Positions 39,125 to 47,040 of a stretch of 50,427 nt of DNA are shown here, in pieces (position 1 is the stretch's first letter; each line of letters opens with the position of its first letter). Where the stretch lies: the NCBI GenBank assembly GCA_902766825.1, contig CACXFB010000074.1:1-50427 (forward strand), given 5' to 3'. The position numbers and the translations under genes were made by a program. The DNA is from an uncultured Lachnospiraceae bacterium (GTDB lineage: Bacteria; Bacillota; Clostridia; Lachnospirales; Lachnospiraceae). Below the pieces are notes generated by a model that worked only from the letters and a program-made list of their open reading frames with translations, was not told the DNA's origin and did no database searches.

Positions 39125-39286
39125 AAAACACCTCCAAAAAATATATAGCATAATTATATACTAATAAAGCAGATAAATAAAGGCGCAATACCAAATGCAA
39201 AGTAGTAAAACAGCCTGTTTTATGGTAAAATATACTTATGTTTTTATGGGATTTACAATCATTTTAAGATGAGGAAGGTATTGGGT

Positions 39287-42200
39287 ATGGAAGAGAAGAA
39301 AGAAGATATAAATGGTGATGGAAAATCGTTTCTTTTATTGGGGAAAATAGCAAAAGTAGCGATTGTTATTGTAATGTGCATTGTGGTAAATTATGCAGGT
39401 AAGTTTATTGGTGAAAAGTATGCTTTACCATTGTGGATGGATTCGCTCGGAACAGTTGTTGCGGCATATATAACCGGACCTATAGGCGGAGCTTTTGCGG
39501 GTTTTACCGCTAATGTTTTGTATGGAAAAGTAAGTCCTGAGTCATTTGCTTACGGAATAACAAGTATCTGTATTGGTATAAGTGTTGGTCTTATGGCGAG
39601 AAAGAGATGGTTTGACACTTTTCTTAATACGGTAATGGCAATATTTGTTGTGGTTGCGTTGGCTATGGCTGTGTCTGTACCTCTCAATTTTTCGTTATAT
39701 GATGGTGGAACCGGAAATGTTTGGGGAGACGGTGTGATGTACTATCTCGAGGATCGTGGAATAGGGCATTATATCGCAGCCGTAATAGGAGAGTTTTATA
39801 TTGATTTTGTGGACAAGACAATTACTCTTGTATTGTTGTTTGTGCTTGTACATCTTAGAAATACAATTAAGAGGGGAATAAAGTACGGTAATGCATACAG
39901 GATGCTTATGTTTACCGGGGCTGTTTTATTTTTTGGAAGTATTATTACTTCTCCTGTACAATGCAGTGCGGACATCAAGGATGAAGAGGATATCTCGTAT
40001 ATTCAGACAGTGTATAACAGTGATAGCGGACTGCCTTGTGGCAATGCTAATGATATAGCACAGACTAAGGACGGAATACTGTGGATTGGTACTTATGCGG
40101 GACTGTTTCGTTACAGTGGCGGGGAGTTCAAGCTTATGCATGAATACAATTCTGTCAGAAATGTTAACTGCATGTATGTTGACAGTGAGGACAGAATATG
40201 GGTTGGAACCAATGACAGTGGTGTTGTTGTTATTAAGGATGAGAAAATAGTAGGTGAGGTCTCGGGTAAAGATGGTTTGCAATCGGATTCCATAAGAAGT
40301 ATCATACAAAGCCAGGACGGATATTATTATATCGGAACGTCTGACGGAATGGCAGTGGTGAGCTTTGATAAAGATATTGTATTTGAAGGGTCTGTTGGTG
40401 AAGTAAACTATGCTTATGATATAGCCGCAAACAGTAAGGGCTACGTAGCGGCTATTACCTATGAAGGCGGTTTGTATGTACTTAAGAATAAAAAAGTAGT
40501 AGATACATATACATTGCCTGAGAAGGATGGAAAATATACAAGTGTTTTATTTGAAAATGATAATGTTATATGCATGGGGACTTCAAAAGGAGTATTGATA
40601 AAAGGATCATTTAATGCAGGAACGATTAAGACGGCAGAAAAGATTCAATGTGCCGATTACAGTATGGTTAATCGAATCTGCAAGAAAGATAATGGTATCA
40701 TATATGTGTGTACGGATAACGGAATCGGATATTTAAAAGATGACGGAAGTTTTGCAAAGACAGAGACTGGAACATTTAACCGTTCCATTCAGAATATGGA
40801 GACGGACTATCAGGGAAATCTTTGGTTTGCTTCATCAAGACACGGCCTTCTTAAGATGACGTTGTCGCCTTTTGAAGATTTGTACAGTGAAGCTGGAATT
40901 GAAGAAAAGGTTGTCAATGCTACGGCGTTGTGGAACGGCTTGTTGTATGTGGGAACCGATGTGGGGTTAGATATTATTGATTTGTCGGACAAGACACAAA
41001 TTGAAAATGAACTGACAAAGAGTCTTGATAGTGTAAGAATAAGATGCGTAATGGCAGACTCGCAGGATCATTTATGGATTTGTACCTATGGAATGGGCCT
41101 TATTGAAGTTGATAAAGACGGCAACAAAAAATCTTATGATTTAATGGCAGATGGTGTCGGCAACCGAGTAAGAGTTTGCATGGAGTTGTCTGATGGCTCA
41201 GTTGTTGTAGGAAGTGATAATGGTCTTACATTCATCAAAGATGATAAGGTGACAGGTCATATACCTTTTGGAGATGATATTGGATTTGCGCAGATATTAA
41301 GTCTGTTGGAATTATCGGATGGAAGACTGCTTGTTGGAACGGACGGTAACGGAATTATAGTGATCAAGGACAAGAAGATTGTGAAGAAAATCACAAGCGA
41401 AGATGGTCTTACTTCAGGCGTAATACTTAGAATGGTTGCGGATTCTGATAGAAATAATGTGTTTGTTGTAACAAGTAACAGTCTTTGTTATATGGATGAC
41501 GGCAAGGCCAATATAATGTCAAACTTCCCGTACTACAATAATTACGATGTATATCTTGACGATGACGGGGAAATGTTTGTTCTTGGAAGTGCAGGATGTT
41601 ATGTAATCGATAAAGAGGAATTATTATCACACCAGGATCCTGATTATAGAATTCTTAACTCCAAGATGGGACTTGCAGGTGCACTTACCGCTAATGCCTG
41701 GCATACAGTGGATGAAAATAAAAACATGTACCTGTGTACTGAAAAAGGTGTATTTGTTGTTAATGCAGATAAGTATGTTCTTGACAGTGAAATTTACAAA
41801 GTAAATATTTCATCAATTGAGATTGACGGAAATTTATATAATAAAAATTCTGAAAATGCCAATGCGGTTATAAAGCTAAGCAGGGAGACATCAAAGATAG
41901 AAATTGTGCCTGAGGTGGTAAACTACACAAAGGAAGATCCGATGGTAACGTACTATCTTGAAGGGCTTGAAGAATCTACAAGAACAATGCACGCAAGTGA
42001 GTTATCGAGTGTAGTATATACAAATCTTGATCCCGGTCAATATGTGTTCCATCTCCTTATTGAATCATCGGACACGGGAGCAGATATTGACGAGGAAATA
42101 ATTTCATTTGAAAAAGAAAAAGCGATTTATGATAACAAGGGCTTCTTGGTGTATCTGATTTTTGTAGGTGCACTGTTTGTGATTATGGTATCATGGCTTG

Positions 42201-42907
42201 TTACTACAAAGTACAATGAGCAAAGACTTAGTTATGCGATGAAACAGATTGAAATGGGTAATCAGACCATTCTTGCAATCGCAAAGACTGTCGATGCCAA
42301 AGATGTCAGAACAAGTAAGCATTCCCAGAGAGTATCTATGTATTCCGTGCTTATTGCAAAGGAACTTGGCTTTACAAAGGATGAACTTGAAAATCTCAGG
42401 AAGGCAGCGCTGTTACATGATATCGGCAAGATAGGAATTCCTGATTCCATACTTAATAAGCCGGGACGTCTGACTGATGAAGAATATGCGATAATGAAGA
42501 CACATGTTACAAGAGGTGCGGAGATACTTAAAGACTTTACTATTGTGGATCATGTTGTTGAGGGTGCCAGATATCATCATGAGAGATATGACGGCAAAGG
42601 ATATCCTGACGGACTTAAGGGAGAAGAGATTCCGTTGTATGGCAGAATAATAGCCGTAGCGGATGCATTTGATGCAATGACGGCAAACCGTGTGTACAGA
42701 AACAAGATTCCATTTGAGCAGGTTCTTGAAGAGTTAAGGAGGTGCAGCGGAAGTCAGTTTGATCCGCAGTTTGCGGGAATCTTCCTTAAGCTTATAGAGA
42801 ATGGAACCATAGACGTTGATGCATTGTACAGCGATGTTAAAGAAAGTACAGAATCAAATGAAGAAACAAAAAAGGATGAGGATAATAAAGAGGATGGTAA
42901 AAAATAA
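39287..42907 (+). CDS. membrane sensor with beta-propeller and HD-GYP domain
   Basis: The protein has 1206 residues from the ATG at 39287, chosen because GAGGAAGG lies 8 bases upstream. Residues about 20-220 form a multi-helix membrane domain resembling ECF-transporter-type substrate-binding subunits (LPLWMDSLGTVVAAYITGPIGGAFAGF). Residues about 225-840 carry many two-component-regulator propeller repeats (GILWIGTYAGLFRY, RIWVGTNDSGVVVI, HLWICTYGMGLIEV). A Y_Y_Y-like beta domain (about 845-940), a membrane helix (about 952-972) and an HD-GYP domain follow, with HDIGKIGIPD (His1044-Asp1045), ARYHHERYDGKGYPDGL and ADAFDAMTANRVYR. All HD-GYP metal and GYP residues look intact, so it should hydrolyse c-di-GMP inside the cell on an outside signal. 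Confidence 0.9.
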   Translation: MEEKKEDINGDGKSFLLLGKIAKVAIVIVMCIVVNYAGKFIGEKYALPLWMDSLGTVVAAYITGPIGGAFAGFTANVLYGKVSPESFAYGITSICIGISVGLMARKRWFDTFLNTVMAIFVVVALAMAVSVPLNFSLYDGGTGNVWGDGVMYYLEDRGIGHYIAAVIGEFYIDFVDKTITLVLLFVLVHLRNTIKRGIKYGNAYRMLMFTGAVLFFGSIITSPVQCSADIKDEEDISYIQTVYNSDSGLPCGNANDIAQTKDGILWIGTYAGLFRYSGGEFKLMHEYNSVRNVNCMYVDSEDRIWVGTNDSGVVVIKDEKIVGEVSGKDGLQSDSIRSIIQSQDGYYYIGTSDGMAVVSFDKDIVFEGSVGEVNYAYDIAANSKGYVAAITYEGGLYVLKNKKVVDTYTLPEKDGKYTSVLFENDNVICMGTSKGVLIKGSFNAGTIKTAEKIQCADYSMVNRICKKDNGIIYVCTDNGIGYLKDDGSFAKTETGTFNRSIQNMETDYQGNLWFASSRHGLLKMTLSPFEDLYSEAGIEEKVVNATALWNGLLYVGTDVGLDIIDLSDKTQIENELTKSLDSVRIRCVMADSQDHLWICTYGMGLIEVDKDGNKKSYDLMADGVGNRVRVCMELSDGSVVVGSDNGLTFIKDDKVTGHIPFGDDIGFAQILSLLELSDGRLLVGTDGNGIIVIKDKKIVKKITSEDGLTSGVILRMVADSDRNNVFVVTSNSLCYMDDGKANIMSNFPYYNNYDVYLDDDGEMFVLGSAGCYVIDKEELLSHQDPDYRILNSKMGLAGALTANAWHTVDENKNMYLCTEKGVFVVNADKYVLDSEIYKVNISSIEIDGNLYNKNSENANAVIKLSRETSKIEIVPEVVNYTKEDPMVTYYLEGLEESTRTMHASELSSVVYTNLDPGQYVFHLLIESSDTGADIDEEIISFEKEKAIYDNKGFLVYLIFVGALFVIMVSWLVTTKYNEQRLSYAMKQIEMGNQTILAIAKTVDAKDVRTSKHSQRVSMYSVLIAKELGFTKDELENLRKAALLHDIGKIGIPDSILNKPGRLTDEEYAIMKTHVTRGAEILKDFTIVDHVVEGARYHHERYDGKGYPDGLKGEEIPLYGRIIAVADAFDAMTANRVYRNKIPFEQVLEELRRCSGSQFDPQFAGIFLKLIENGTIDVDALYSDVKESTESNEETKKDEDNKEDGKK

Positions 42908-42915
42908 TCATGAAA

Positions 42916-42935
42916 AATGATTGAAATCAATCATT
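42916..42935 (+). other. small hairpin after the HD-GYP gene
   Basis: AATGATTG and CAATCATT form a perfect 8-bp stem with a four-base loop. CATGA and TCATG on either side can extend the structure. It lies directly before the larger terminator-like hairpin. It lacks its own T run. Confidence 0.5.
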
Positions 42936-42942
42936 CTCATGT

Positions 42943-43016
42943 AGCCTTTATGGTGGTAATATTAATAAAAATCAATTCACATGATTAAATATTACCACTA
43001 TGAAGGCTCTTTTTTT
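42943..43016 (+). terminator. long terminator or attenuator upstream of leuA
   Basis: A 21-bp stem with few mismatches pairs 42943-42963 with 42988-43008, followed by CT and a T run to 43016. It ends the HD-GYP transcript. No clear promoter is seen between it and the leuA start at 43078, so leuA expression may depend on reading through it. Confidence 0.75.
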
Positions 43017-43077
43017 ACGTCTGTTTGGATATGGGCCTGATGATGGAGAAAATATAACAGGAAAAGAGGTAATGAAC

Positions 43078-45063
43078 ATGAAAGGTTATGACAAGTATGA
43101 GAGAGCATATTTTATGCCGCCGGTATGTACATATGACTGGGTAAAGAAGGATTATATAGACAAGGCCCCTATATGGTGTTCGGTTGATTTACGTGATGGT
43201 AATCAGGCACTTATTGAGCCTATGAGTCTTGAGGAGAAACTTGAGTTCTTTAAGGTGCTTGTAGATATAGGGTTTAAGGAGATTGAAGTTGGATTTCCGG
43301 CAGCATCTTCAACGGAATACAATTTTATGAGAGCTTTAATAGAGCGCAATATGATTCCTGATGATGTTACGGTGCAGGTATTAACCCAGGCAAGAGAGCA
43401 CATTATCAAGAAGACTTTTGAGGCAGTTAAGGGCGCACCTCATGCAGTTATTCACCTTTACAACTCTACTTCAGTTGCACAGCGTGAGCAGGTGTTTAAA
43501 AAGAGCAGGGAAGAGGTTAAGCAGATTGCAATAGACGGAGCAAAGCTTTTATGGGAGCTTGCTAATGAGACGGAAGGTAATTTTTCATTTGAGTACAGCC
43601 CTGAGAGTTTCCCTGGAACAGAAGTGGATTATGCGGTGGAAGTGTGTAATGCAGTCTTAGATATATGGAAGCCTACAAAGGATAAAAAGGTAATTATCAA
43701 TATTCCTACAACAGTTGAGATAGCTATGCCACACGTTTTTGCAACACAGGTTGAATATATAAGCAAGAACCTTAAGTATCGTGACGGAGTTGTTTTAAGC
43801 CTTCATCCTCACAATGACAGAGGAAGCGGCGTAAGTGATGCCGAGCTTGGACTTTTAGCGGGAGCTGACAGAATAGAAGGTACACTGTTTGGCAACGGAG
43901 AGAGAACAGGTAATGTGGATATTGTTACACTTGCAATGAACATGTTCTCACACGGAGTTGACCCACAGCTTGATTTTTCTTCTATGTCAAAGATAAGAGA
44001 ATGTTACGAGAGACTTACGAGAATGACTGTTCCGCCAAGAAGTCCTTATGCGGGAGACCTTGTATTTACTGCATTTTCAGGTTCGCATCAGGATGCTATC
44101 TCAAAGGGAATGACGTTCCGTGATGACAATAAACTTTACAAATGGTCAGTGCCATATCTTCCGGTAGATCCAAAGGATGTCGGAAGAGCATATGAGTCTG
44201 ATGTCATAAGAATTAACAGCCAGTCAGGTAAGGGCGGTGTAAGTTATATTCTCAAACAGAATTTTGGTATTACAATTCCTGATAAGATGAGAGAGGAACT
44301 TGGATATACCGTTAAGCAGGTGTCGGATGATACGCACAAGGAACTTGATGCGCAGGTAGTGTATGATATTCTTCTTGATAATTACGTAAATAATCAGGTT
44401 CATTTTCAGATTCCTGAGTGTCATTTTAGACAGGAAAATGGAATTACAGCCAGCGCAAGTATTGCCCATAACAATCAGATTCATGTGATTGATGCATCCG
44501 GTAACGGAAGACTTGATGCAGTCTCTAACACAATAAAACAGTATTTTGACATAAGTTACGAACTGAGTGTTTATGAGGAACATGCATTGTCTAAGGGGTC
44601 ATCTTCAAAAGCCATGTCATTTGTGGGAATAACCTGTGACGGCAAGATGTACTGGGGCGTCGGAATAGATGAAGATATTATCAAATCTTCAATAAGCGCA
44701 CTTGTTGTAGCTGTCAACAAACTTCCGGCAGTTAATCAGGCAGGTGCCAAGGACGATGAAAGACTCATTGCCATTAAGAACTTTATACAGGCTAATTACC
44801 AGACGGTATCTTTAGATGATGTCGCAGAAAAGTTTGGAATGTCAAGCGGATATGTTTCAAGATATTTTAAAGCAAAATCCGGCATAAGCTTTATGGATTA
44901 TGTACAGCAGATAAAGATGAAGAAAGCAAAGACGCTTTTAAAGAACAGCACACTGTCGATAGAAAAGATTGCAGAGAATACGGGCTATCCTAATGTGGAA
45001 CATTTCAGTCGTATGTTTAAGAAAAAATATGGAATAGCGCCGAAAGAATATAGGAATAAATAG
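43078..45063 (+). CDS. leuA: 2-isopropylmalate synthase fused to an AraC-type DNA-binding domain
   Basis: The protein has 661 residues. LeuA condenses acetyl-CoA with 2-ketoisovalerate, the first committed step to leucine. AAGAGG at 43064-43069 supports the ATG at 43078; the frame is open from an ATG at 43000 inside the terminator. The catalytic barrel (about 1-350) has [22 protein letters not shown] and [13 protein letters not shown] leucine-type regulatory domain spans about 420-550 ([32 protein letters not shown]). Residues 565-661 are a complete AraC domain with two helix-turn-helix motifs: [20 protein letters not shown], and [21 protein letters not shown] followed by [12 protein letters not shown]. 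The frame is continuous. Bacterial LeuA is usually about 510-560 residues without such a tail. A leucine-responsive DNA-binding role is inference. Confidence 0.95.
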
Positions 45064-45117
45064 TGACTTCTTACTATTGTTGTGTTAGAATACTCCTTGG
45101 CTAAAAATGAAAGGAGT
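45064..45117 (+). promoter_or_regulatory. promoter and ribosome-site hairpin for the CBM25 protein gene
   Basis: TGACTT at 45064-45069, a 16-bp spacer and TAGAAT at 45086-45091 preceded by TGTGT form a possible promoter. ACTCCTT (45092-45098) is perfectly complementary to AAGGAGT (45111-45117), which contains the ribosome site. If transcription begins at about 45098 the hairpin would not form; from an upstream start it would. Confidence 0.4.
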
Positions 45118-45123
45118 AATGAG

Positions 45124-47040
45124 ATGTTAAAGACAAAAAGAGCATTAGCTCTTATGCTGCTTGCATTTATGTTCAGTTTCGTAATTTCGAACGCGGACAA
45201 TGCAGATGCAGCTACGGTAACACAGAGTGGGCAGTCAGAAGAATTAAATGTAACTATTAAGTCGGTAACAAGCGGAAATCCTTACAGCTATCTTTATATA
45301 GATGTTGAAGGAGGAACTGCGCCATATACATACAGTTATGTATATACAAGAAAGAGTAACGGTGAGCAGTTGGATAAAAGATCCGATGTGGCAGTTTATC
45401 TGAGCGGCAATGGAAATGAATTTGGATTAAGTGTCAATACAGATGCTTATGCAACAAATTGTGGCGCATATCCTACACAGGGATTTAGCGGTATAGGAAC
45501 AAATCATCTTGATATTACAGTCAAGGATTCTACAGGTGCTACATGTAATGTAGGAACTGATATCGAAGTTGAGCCGTTTGAGGTAACAGGTGTTTATGCT
45601 AATCTTGCCTCAGGTCAGAAGATTGGAACACAGATTACATTAACAGTTGAATCAAAGAACAGATTTAACGGATATTGTTCAAGAATTCCGCTTACATATT
45701 CTTGGAAAGCAACGAATCTTTCTACTGGAAAGACAGAGAAAATATACGGTATATCTGCTTCTAATACATGTTATTGGACACCAACAGTTGGCGGAAAATA
45801 CATAATTGAGGCAAGTACGAATGATGTTAATTATTCATCAAATACGATGGAATTCGAGGTGCTTGCAAATAATAAGATATCTGTTTACTATGCAAACAGT
45901 AACTGGAACGATGCGTATATTCATTTTAAGACACAAAACGGTGAGTGGACAGATGTGCCGGGACTTAAGATGGAAGAAAGCGACATGGAAGGATACACAT
46001 GGAAGTTTGATATCCAGCTTGATGGAGATAACAGCAACAGTGCATTAGTATGCTTTAACAACGGTAATGGTGATTGGGACAGCAGAAACGGACAGAACTA
46101 TTATCTTAATAAAGGAGCATACGGAATCAAGAATGATAACATAGAAACATTAGGTTTCAAAGTTAAATATTTCACAGTAGGAAAGACATCACCGGTAGGA
46201 CTGAGTGATATCAACTTGAATTTCAGCGCAAAGGCGGATTTTGGAAGTGGAGATTACTCTTACAGATTTGGAACAATCTTTAATGGACAAAGAGCATATT
46301 GCACAGAAGAATTTAATGAGTATGATACACACTATGAATGGCTTAGCTCAATACTTAAAGTAGAGGCAAAAAAGGTGCTTGGTACACATACATTATTTGT
46401 TGAAGCAAAGGATAATATTACAGGCCAGATTGCAACAAAGACTATCGAGAATTTTGTTGTTAAGCCACTTAGAATTACATCATTTACATCAGATGCACCA
46501 TCATCTGTGATAAGTGTTGGAACACCCGTTGTTCTTAGTGCTGAGACTGAGTATGAAGTTGGATATCGTTACAACTCATATGTATTTACAATTATTAAAG
46601 ATGGCGTAAGAACAACACTGGAGCCTTGGAATTACTGGTCTCACTATTCTAAGACATGGACACCTACAGAAGCAGGAGAATACACTGTAGAATATTACGT
46701 AAGAGACGGTTACGATCAGGAAGCAGTTGCAACACTTAACTTTAAGGTAATTGAGAGTAATAAAACTACTCTTTACTATAACAATAACAACTGGTCACAG
46801 GCATATGTACATTATTGCATTAACGGTCAGTGGACAGCTGTACCTGGAGTAAAGATGGCTGATTCAGATAAAGACGGATACAGATGGAAATTTGATTTTG
46901 ACTTGGGAGAAGCAGAAGGTGTAACAGTATGCTTTACAGATGGTAACGGTAACTGGGACAGCAGAAATGCTTCGAACTATTACATCGGAACCGGAAAATA
47001 TGGTATTAAAGACGGTTCGATTTATGAATTGAATGATTAG
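45124..47040 (+). CDS. secreted protein with two CBM25-like starch-binding modules
   Basis: The protein has 638 residues. AGGAG at 45112-45116 supports the ATG at 45124. A Sec signal peptide (about 1-30) ends NADAA. Two similar halves follow, each with beta-sandwich repeats like triple-Tyr or PKD-type domains (TAPYTYSYVYTRKSNGEQ, CYWTPTVGGKYIIEAST, TWTPTEAGEYTVEYYV), then a CBM25-like module. Modules lie at about 252-340 (YYANSNWNDAYIHF, FNNGNGDWDSRNGQNYY) and 548-636 (YYNNNNWSQAYVHY, FTDGNGNWDSRNASNYY). No catalytic domain or sortase signal is visible. It probably binds starch outside the cell and may help the GH13 lipoprotein. The repeats suggest internal duplication. Confidence 0.85.
   Translation: MLKTKRALALMLLAFMFSFVISNADNADAATVTQSGQSEELNVTIKSVTSGNPYSYLYIDVEGGTAPYTYSYVYTRKSNGEQLDKRSDVAVYLSGNGNEFGLSVNTDAYATNCGAYPTQGFSGIGTNHLDITVKDSTGATCNVGTDIEVEPFEVTGVYANLASGQKIGTQITLTVESKNRFNGYCSRIPLTYSWKATNLSTGKTEKIYGISASNTCYWTPTVGGKYIIEASTNDVNYSSNTMEFEVLANNKISVYYANSNWNDAYIHFKTQNGEWTDVPGLKMEESDMEGYTWKFDIQLDGDNSNSALVCFNNGNGDWDSRNGQNYYLNKGAYGIKNDNIETLGFKVKYFTVGKTSPVGLSDINLNFSAKADFGSGDYSYRFGTIFNGQRAYCTEEFNEYDTHYEWLSSILKVEAKKVLGTHTLFVEAKDNITGQIATKTIENFVVKPLRITSFTSDAPSSVISVGTPVVLSAETEYEVGYRYNSYVFTIIKDGVRTTLEPWNYWSHYSKTWTPTEAGEYTVEYYVRDGYDQEAVATLNFKVIESNKTTLYYNNNNWSQAYVHYCINGQWTAVPGVKMADSDKDGYRWKFDFDLGEAEGVTVCFTDGNGNWDSRNASNYYIGTGKYGIKDGSIYELND

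Follow-up and report, generated by a model that had tools for sequence, protein, structure and literature searches.

Enzymes that carry a DNA-binding domain include PutA, BirA, NadR and Ada, the domain of Ada also being of the AraC type. AraC itself, at araBAD I1-I2, binds paired half-sites with a spacing of 21 bp and activates near the -35 region. For the LeuA family the homodimer is the known state, and leucine binding to the regulatory domain inhibits known LeuA proteins. The LeuA of Mycobacterium tuberculosis (3fig, leucine-bound; the yeast-like subfamily, PRK03739/NF002991) is the best PDB match, both by sequence and by fold, of a protein encoded in the window, i.e. the whole 50,427-nt stretch of DNA analysed here. 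The two proteins share the barrel, post-catalytic and regulatory domains. M. tuberculosis LeuA stops after the regulatory domain, whereas the protein of the window continues into an AraC-type DNA-binding domain.

No description of a LeuA-AraC fusion was found in searches of an open-access library, in line with the initial annotation, which knew of no characterised example. No mention of one was seen in passages of PMC9026213 and PMC3602430; the term "trigger enzyme" occurs in a reference of the latter. An enzyme with a DNA-binding domain is of a known kind, while the combination of LeuA and AraC appears to be new. Based on the comparisons below we suggest that the fusion is a working 2-isopropylmalate synthase and, in addition, a dedicated one-component regulator of its own gene, a reading to which we assign a probability of about 0.7.

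The fusion gene and its product

A reading frame on the forward strand of the window is open from an ATG at 43000 to the stop at 45063. The ATG at 43078 is favoured as the start because of the homologue alignment and a ribosome binding site 8 nt upstream (GAAAAGAGG, 43061-43069), giving a leuA-araC fusion gene at 43078..45063 (+) with a product of 661 aa. All five Pfam matches of this product are above cut-off. The 2-isopropylmalate synthase TIM barrel (HMGL-like, PF00682, E 1.6e-67; 43168..44001) is followed by the post-catalytic domain (IPMS_D2, PF22615, E 8.9e-33; 44056..44256) and the regulatory, leucine-binding and dimerisation domain (LeuA_dimer, PF08502, E 5.4e-22; 44359..44724). A short variable linker (44722..44763), recognized by low conservation in 81 sequences, leads into the AraC-type DNA-binding domain (44758..45057), with seven predicted helices and matches to HTH_18 (PF12833, E 4e-24, 85.1 bits, cut-off 33.6) and HTH_AraC (PF00165, E 7.9e-17, 61.4 bits, cut-off 26.6). 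Helix prediction and alignment place the recognition helices of the first and second helix-turn-helix at residues 590-601 (44845..44880) and 640-651 (44995..45030); all of these features are on the forward strand. The initial annotation had proposed a single uninterrupted frame at 43078-45063 joining LeuA, its regulatory domain and an AraC module with both helix-turn-helix motifs, and the frame, the coordinates, the order of domains and both motifs are confirmed by these matches and the predicted helices.

Over residues 5-548 the protein scores 796.8 bits against NF002991 (PRK03739 LeuA subfamily; curated cut-off 455). By this family it would be named simply 2-isopropylmalate synthase, so that the regulator is easily overlooked. 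An AlphaFold model made with 41 sequences had an overall mean pLDDT of 74.3 and a pTM of 0.53; because of these values only the local folds of the AraC domain and the regulatory domain were taken from it, and the arrangement of the domains was left unused. In the model the PF08502 domain has block pLDDT values of 80-92, with one block at 56, and the AraC domain shows the standard seven-helix fold behind the regulatory domain (block pLDDT 80-88).

No other leu gene was seen by eye near the fusion in the annotated part of the window (38-50 kb), which agrees with the initial annotation. Neighbours of the fusion are not conserved: over stretches of up to 6 kb, shorter for several of the 81 loci, the commonest one occurs in 13, and the idea of an operon partner was therefore dropped. 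The upstream gene (39269-42907) encodes a 1212-residue protein with two-component-regulator propeller repeats, an HD_5 (HD-GYP-like) domain and a Y_Y_Y match just under the Pfam cut-off; it looks like an unusual sensor whose output is likely to be a phosphodiesterase. Downstream, 45082-47040 encodes a secreted-looking protein with starch-binding CBM25 domains and a likely start at ATG 45124. An extended -10-like sequence, TGTGTTAGAAT, is found after the fusion stop, just upstream of this ATG.

Conservation of the fusion

Relatives of the protein were found in 200 cases in named genome contigs, and the best 80 of these were kept. They are 71-85% identical to it, and their titles are mostly Lachnospiraceae, Eubacterium, Roseburia and similar. 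Residues 1 or 4 to 659-661 are matched by 79 of the best 80, the remaining one (L071) being truncated by the end of its own contig, and none of the 80 has an internal stop in the match.

Amongst 396 genomes of the GTDB family of the window, at least 94 have a match in one frame to residue 659-661. Among the matches listed in this search, the other family rows are orthologues, most of them stopping at around residue 550; many further genomes have a best E near 1e-175, which is the level of a more distant paralogue, and some have matches at AraC level only. In an order-wide sample (295 genomes, E up to 1e-200) the full-length matches all fall within the family. A phylum-wide sample (398 genomes, E up to 1e-150) contained one fusion outside it, in G966, which is 70% identical. 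Two other long matches of this sample with internal stops (G982 and G925) are without an AraC match. One metagenome-assembled genome (CANOFO01) carries two fusion copies, L035 and L047, on separate contigs.

An artefact of assembly or a frameshift is ruled out by the full-length relatives, by the family genomes with the fusion in one frame, and by the lack of stops. The initial annotation had asked whether the domain order is conserved in several genomes, and had named a stop or frameshift between the domains, absence of the fusion from all relatives, and loss of DNA-contact residues as grounds for giving it up. Neither stop nor frameshift was seen in the 80 loci, the fusion and its domain order are conserved in many genomes of the family, and so are the recognition helices (see section on the AraC half).

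A candidate operator upstream of fusion genes

What is new here is a candidate target for the AraC part, a paired site of ~38 bp at a fixed distance from an extended -10. The consensus of 61 aligned sites is TTAAAATAAATCAATAAAAATGATTAAATTTA, in which TCAA and TGATT are invariant. Of 80 loci, the 61 with at most 5 mismatches to a first consensus served to build a model (R1) and a 33-column matrix; the window was excluded. The matrix scan covered 900 bp upstream of each gene, and the fusion genes missed in it were rescanned over longer upstream sequence.

Sites of at least 12 bits were found upstream of 90 of 101 fusion genes, a count that is partly circular as it includes the training loci; the 20 later loci and the window are independent, and 14 of 20 fusion loci outside the training set pass 12 bits. 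By comparison, none of 26 unfused orthologues has such a site within 900 bp (best 2.6 bits), and the maximum in shuffled upstream regions was -5.6. The two split genes described below (G049 and G062) have a promoter site of at least 12 bits. Three of the 11 misses (L010, L013, L024) have a site of 44-47 bits further away, at 1.3-1.6 kb upstream, and it is followed by a T-box core and then by an inserted gene. The gene lying between site and T-box core on one side and the fusion on the other was named by eye as a GNAT-like acetyltransferase in L010 and a methyltransferase in L013 and L024; these inserted genes are perhaps under the promoter of the fusion too. This leaves 8 of 101 fusion promoters without a site of 12 bits even in the longer scan. 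Inspected by eye, five of the eight show a degenerate copy where the site would be expected, two, which are near-identical loci, have a TGAC variant, and one has nothing.

Half-sites repeat at 22-23 bp in 54 of the 61 sites. The best extended -10 (TGN-TANNAT) within a 32-nt range begins 55-56 nt after the start of the site in 76 of 88 promoters (at exactly 56 nt in 70) and elsewhere in 12. Counted from the transcription start predicted in this way, the site would span about -71 to -34. Comparative genomics finds paired half-sites of AraC/XylS type near -35 at fusion promoters, and the site is kept at its fixed spacing across proteins of 63-85% identity. The -35 hexamers are weak: over 84 promoters they agree with TTGACA at a mean of 3.6 of the 6 positions, compared with 2.6 for shuffled sequence. 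Because they are weak yet better than shuffled, repression is possible and the polarity of control is uncertain.

Promoter of the fusion gene in the window

The window contains two candidate operator sites, both on the forward strand. Site 1 (42898..42935) scores 16.4 bits by the matrix and is unreported by R1; it abuts the -35 region and shares its first 10 bases with the end of the gene upstream. The extended -10, TGG-TAATAT (42954..42962 (+)), was read in the sequence; in line with the spacing rule, TGGTAATAT stands exactly 56 nt after site 1 begins. Site 2 (42962..42999; 22.8 bits by the matrix, 17.2 by R1) covers the predicted transcription start at about 42969. The sites of the window are weak for R1, site 2 being nonetheless its best match in the genome (E 0.019), with the next, of 13.2 bits, elsewhere.

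Second copies of the site were looked for 63-80 nt downstream of the first, with the 95% shuffle level as threshold. Of 47 promoters that lack a T-box, a group that includes both split genes, 19 have such a copy; of 51 with a T-box 9 do, weakly, about 2.5 being expected by chance in each group. A T-box in the window itself was considered and ruled out, as Rfam reports none at its gathering threshold; here the protein sites may have replaced it.

Distribution of the site across genomes

Genomes were scanned with R1, scoring the best 150 first-look candidates per genome in 30 fusion genomes and, with stricter filters, the best 92 in 73 further genomes. A single match of 20.6-37.3 bits, always at the fusion gene, was obtained in 26 of the 30 fusion genomes. 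Among the matches listed for all 30, the highest score at any other place was 19.0 bits; one match of 19.7 bits is the same, partly palindromic fusion-gene site on the other strand. The remaining four are without a match of 20 bits. Three of these (the genome of the window, G403 and G397) have their best match at the fusion gene, and one (G424) has it away from the gene. In the further genomes, 22 of 33 that are fused have a match of at least 20 bits just upstream of the fusion, 4 have a weaker match there and 7 have none there.

Forty of the further genomes had been listed as unfused. A strong match at leuA is present in just one of them, G049, while six have matches of 16-18 bits elsewhere in the genome. 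In G049 (L154, 2721-4749) the AraC part is found in an overlapping frame directly after LeuA. In G062 (L193) LeuA and AraC are split at a run of eight A, again in overlapping frames, and a site of 21.7 bits by the matrix is present, with no R1 match. These splits could be an assembly error, a real split, or a frameshift or slippage site. None of the other 38 genomes has an R1 match at leuA; the absence of AraC after LeuA was read in the DNA for 21 of them. The fusion outside the family (G966) has a site of 34.5 bits at the gene, a -10 at the same offset and a T-box core, and a second, partial match of 20.2 bits in this genome lies inside a gene. No site was found in G1012, an unfused relative of 73% identity.

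Since a matching site lies at its own promoter and hardly anywhere else in the genome, the fusion enzyme probably controls its own production. The initial annotation had suggested that it reports leucine state to promoters and may act in trans. Action at a promoter gains strong support from the site, which is present at fusion genes and absent from unfused leuA; action at several promoters in trans has at best weak support, with no off-locus match above 19.0 bits in the 30 genomes.

A wider leucine regulon, with weaker sites at ilv, leu and transporter genes that the model mostly misses, is rather unlikely. AraC proteins often tolerate degenerate sites, and matches of 12-17 bits occur in all 30 fusion genomes. 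The best case is in Roseburia porci (L161/G399:C54:145882-145904 (-)), where a partial site about 140 nt upstream of azlC (PF03591, 127.1 bits, cut-off 32.1) scores 19.0 bits by R1 (model positions 12-34), but only 8.7 by the full matrix. An azlD-like gene follows azlC. AzlCD exports branched-chain amino acids, and this azlC is a possible second target of the fusion. However, none of the 29 other azlC loci of fusion genomes (26 genomes have one) reaches 12 bits upstream, the best being -9.7. Eight second-tier places were inspected; apart from the one before azlC, five fall within genes, another is a palindrome where a gene ends, and the last is intergenic without the -10 spacing. Nor is any neighbour of the fusion conserved, and 20 kb with the leu/ilv operon in the genome of the window contain no site, so that the shared motif for which the initial annotation wanted leu, ilv and the fusion gene compared was not found there. 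With no second target of comparable strength in the R1 scan of 30 genomes or in local scans, a regulon at leu/ilv genes was rejected.

It is distinctly unlikely that a separate regulator reads the promoter site and that the AraC part has another DNA target or none. In favour, part of the site is a palindrome (TGATTAAATTTAATCA), a less usual feature for targets of AraC proteins. Against this, the site follows the AraC part over 101 fused, 26 unfused and two split loci, over whole genomes, and in the fusion outside the family; its spacing and position suit an AraC dimer, and a separate regulator would need to be lost and gained in step with the AraC part. A tree-aware test of domain against site yielded three pairs on supported branches, too few for significance.

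The enzyme half

Catalytic sequence motifs, namely a stretch of 21 residues and FSGSHQDA, are invariant in 41 aligned sequences. The same is true of D40, H243, H245, N279, H337 and Y372 (aligned to 1sr9), which we take to be metal and substrate residues with roles as in M. tuberculosis LeuA. The GNG, YxEHA and WGVGI motifs of the regulatory domain also align with that protein, and this region may contain the leucine pocket. Of 11 pairs run for dN/dS, 8 had a measurable dS for the LeuA part and gave values of 0.004-0.032; pairs including the window were saturated. On these grounds the enzyme appears intact.

A search of the 30 fusion genomes for proteins with a PF08502 domain recovered the fusion and no other in 24. 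A frame of the aconitase family and of LeuC size (415-495 codons) is present in all 30. Because of these two results the fusion is probably the synthase of the leucine pathway in the 24 genomes with a single PF08502 protein. The other six (that of the window and 5 of the 29 others) have a second PF08502 protein, in all cases unfused and 48-50% identical. In the genome of the window this second LeuA (L163, 8138-9814, contig C19) is unfused, isolated and of about 50% identity; it falls in a separate clade of the LeuA tree and has neither an operator site nor a T-box.

Alternatively, the fusion might be a pure regulator, with the synthase part serving only as a sensor of leucine or ketoacid while another LeuA catalyses. 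The six genomes with a second protein would fit, but the invariant catalytic motifs, the low dN/dS of the LeuA part and the 24 genomes without another PF08502 protein, together with the LeuC-size frame in all 30, make this very unlikely.

Contig C10 of the genome of the window carries two leuDC-like pairs, leuB, ilvD and ilvB together, identified by eye and, for the two LeuC, by PF00330. No leuA is found beside this cluster in the 20 kb read. The two leuDC-type dehydratase pairs stand in tandem before leuB, ilvD and ilvB (L223, 12828-16380; names by eye), and one of them may serve another acid.

The AraC half and its history

In the first recognition helix Y592, S594, K600 and S601 are present in 81 of 81 sequences. 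E641, F643, R645 and F647 of the second are present in all 80 sequences that reach this region, and H642 in 77 of the 80. The dN/dS of the AraC part is 0-0.034 in the 6 of 11 pairs with a measurable dS, which points to strong purifying selection in these pairs and, with the conserved helices, to an intact domain. In L078 and L080 the site variant GTCAATAAAACTTGAC lies about 80-130 nt upstream of the fusion, alongside T591 and N642. This might reflect a changed DNA specificity, in one lineage only. Covariation of helix and site is weak: the TGAC variant occurs with T591 and N642 in this one lineage, and L041 has N642 yet an ordinary site.

A LeuA tree (quick method, 96 rows) has unfused proteins at the base, and above them the three kinds of row (fused, unfused, split) are intermingled. 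To explain the fused label 8 changes are required, of which starred branches force at least 5, or 6 changes if split rows are counted as fused, and a single clade of fused plus split rows is rejected (p-AU 0.0005). The simplest reading would be one gain and repeated losses of the AraC part. It is most improbable that some lineages carry the AraC part merely as a passenger in decay, with the site as inherited baggage; the several losses or gains that the tree needs and the AraC part split by a frame change in two genomes would suit such decay, but the strong purifying selection seen for this part wherever dS could be measured and the fixed spacing of the site over proteins of 63-85% identity argue against it.

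T-box leaders

With one mismatch allowed, a T-box core was counted in 51 of 101 fused upstream regions versus 22 of 26 unfused ones. All 51 fused regions with the core also carry the site; in 3 of them the core is upstream of the site, which is probably chance. Rfam finds the T-box (RF00230) in 5 of the 8 fused loci given to it, and also in one fused locus (L179) and in 2 of 3 unfused loci (L155, L204); it finds none in the two split loci.

The specifier could be read with a neutral pattern in 5 of the 51 fused regions (CTC 3, CTG 1, AAG 1) and 10 of the 22 unfused ones (CTC 5, CTG 3, GAT 1, AAG 1), respectively. A second pattern, which takes CTN for granted, gave a reading for 36 of the 51 and 17 of the 22, with CTG or CTC as the leucine codon. 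The Rfam alignment of L017 has a leucine codon at the place of the specifier. Because the CTN pattern presupposes the result and the neutral pattern read few leaders, leucine specificity of these T-box leaders is only likely.

Proposed mechanism

As a working synthase and dedicated regulator of its own gene, the fusion might act as follows. The synthase homodimer would present two AraC-type domains, which would bind the two half-sites of its own promoter, separated by about two turns of the helix, in the region from about -71 to -34. The fusion is then most likely an activator that contacts RNA polymerase beside a weak -35 and an extended -10, the sign of regulation being inferred. Leucine is a plausible signal. 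Its binding at the regulatory domain might also switch the arrangement of the DNA-binding domains, so that one binding event would turn off both activity and synthesis: the leucine-free form would activate and the leucine-bound form would not, combining feedback inhibition and gene control in one switch.

When leucine or the protein is plentiful, activation would be lost, or repression would set in via site 2. At some promoters without a T-box, including that of the window, the operator over the transcription start probably represses at high levels of the protein. In about half of the fusions the T-box kept between promoter and gene would provide a second leucine check. More specifically, a one-component transcription factor might have recruited the leucine feedback site of the enzyme as its sensor, with its own gene as the main target or the only one; in the lineage of the window and others like it two operators, at the -35 region and over the transcription start, would replace the T-box, closing a loop of activity, amount and leucine. 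We consider the chances of this fuller scheme to be slightly better than even.

If true, this would be a natural and widespread biosynthetic enzyme of gut bacteria that doubles as a dedicated regulator of its own gene. Inside one bacterial family the circuit would have been gained, lost together with the operator that it uses, and exchanged for or against an RNA switch. The fusion may also offer a ready-made leucine-sensing regulator for engineering.

Comparison with known systems

The fusion resembles regulators of the AraC/XylS family in having two helix-turn-helix units, in a C-terminal DNA-binding domain behind a presumably dimeric ligand-binding domain, and in the paired half-sites about two turns apart that end near -35. 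It differs from AraC in that its sensor is a complete biosynthetic enzyme and its strong site is at its own gene. The spacing of half-sites is also different, mostly 22-23 bp compared with 21 for AraC.

Leucine T-box leaders (RF00230) precede about half of the fusion genes and most of the unfused orthologues read. The window differs from a leuA with such a leader in that the T-box is absent.

With the trigger enzymes PutA, BirA, NadR and Ada the fusion would share a plan in which an enzyme of metabolism or repair also governs transcription, its own gene included. Judged from sequence, its catalytic residues, its status as sole copy in most of the 30 fusion genomes and its association with a promoter fit this class. 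The known trigger enzymes are different enzymes, however; an AraC-type domain is found only in Ada, and none of them has a leucine allosteric site or is coupled to a T-box.
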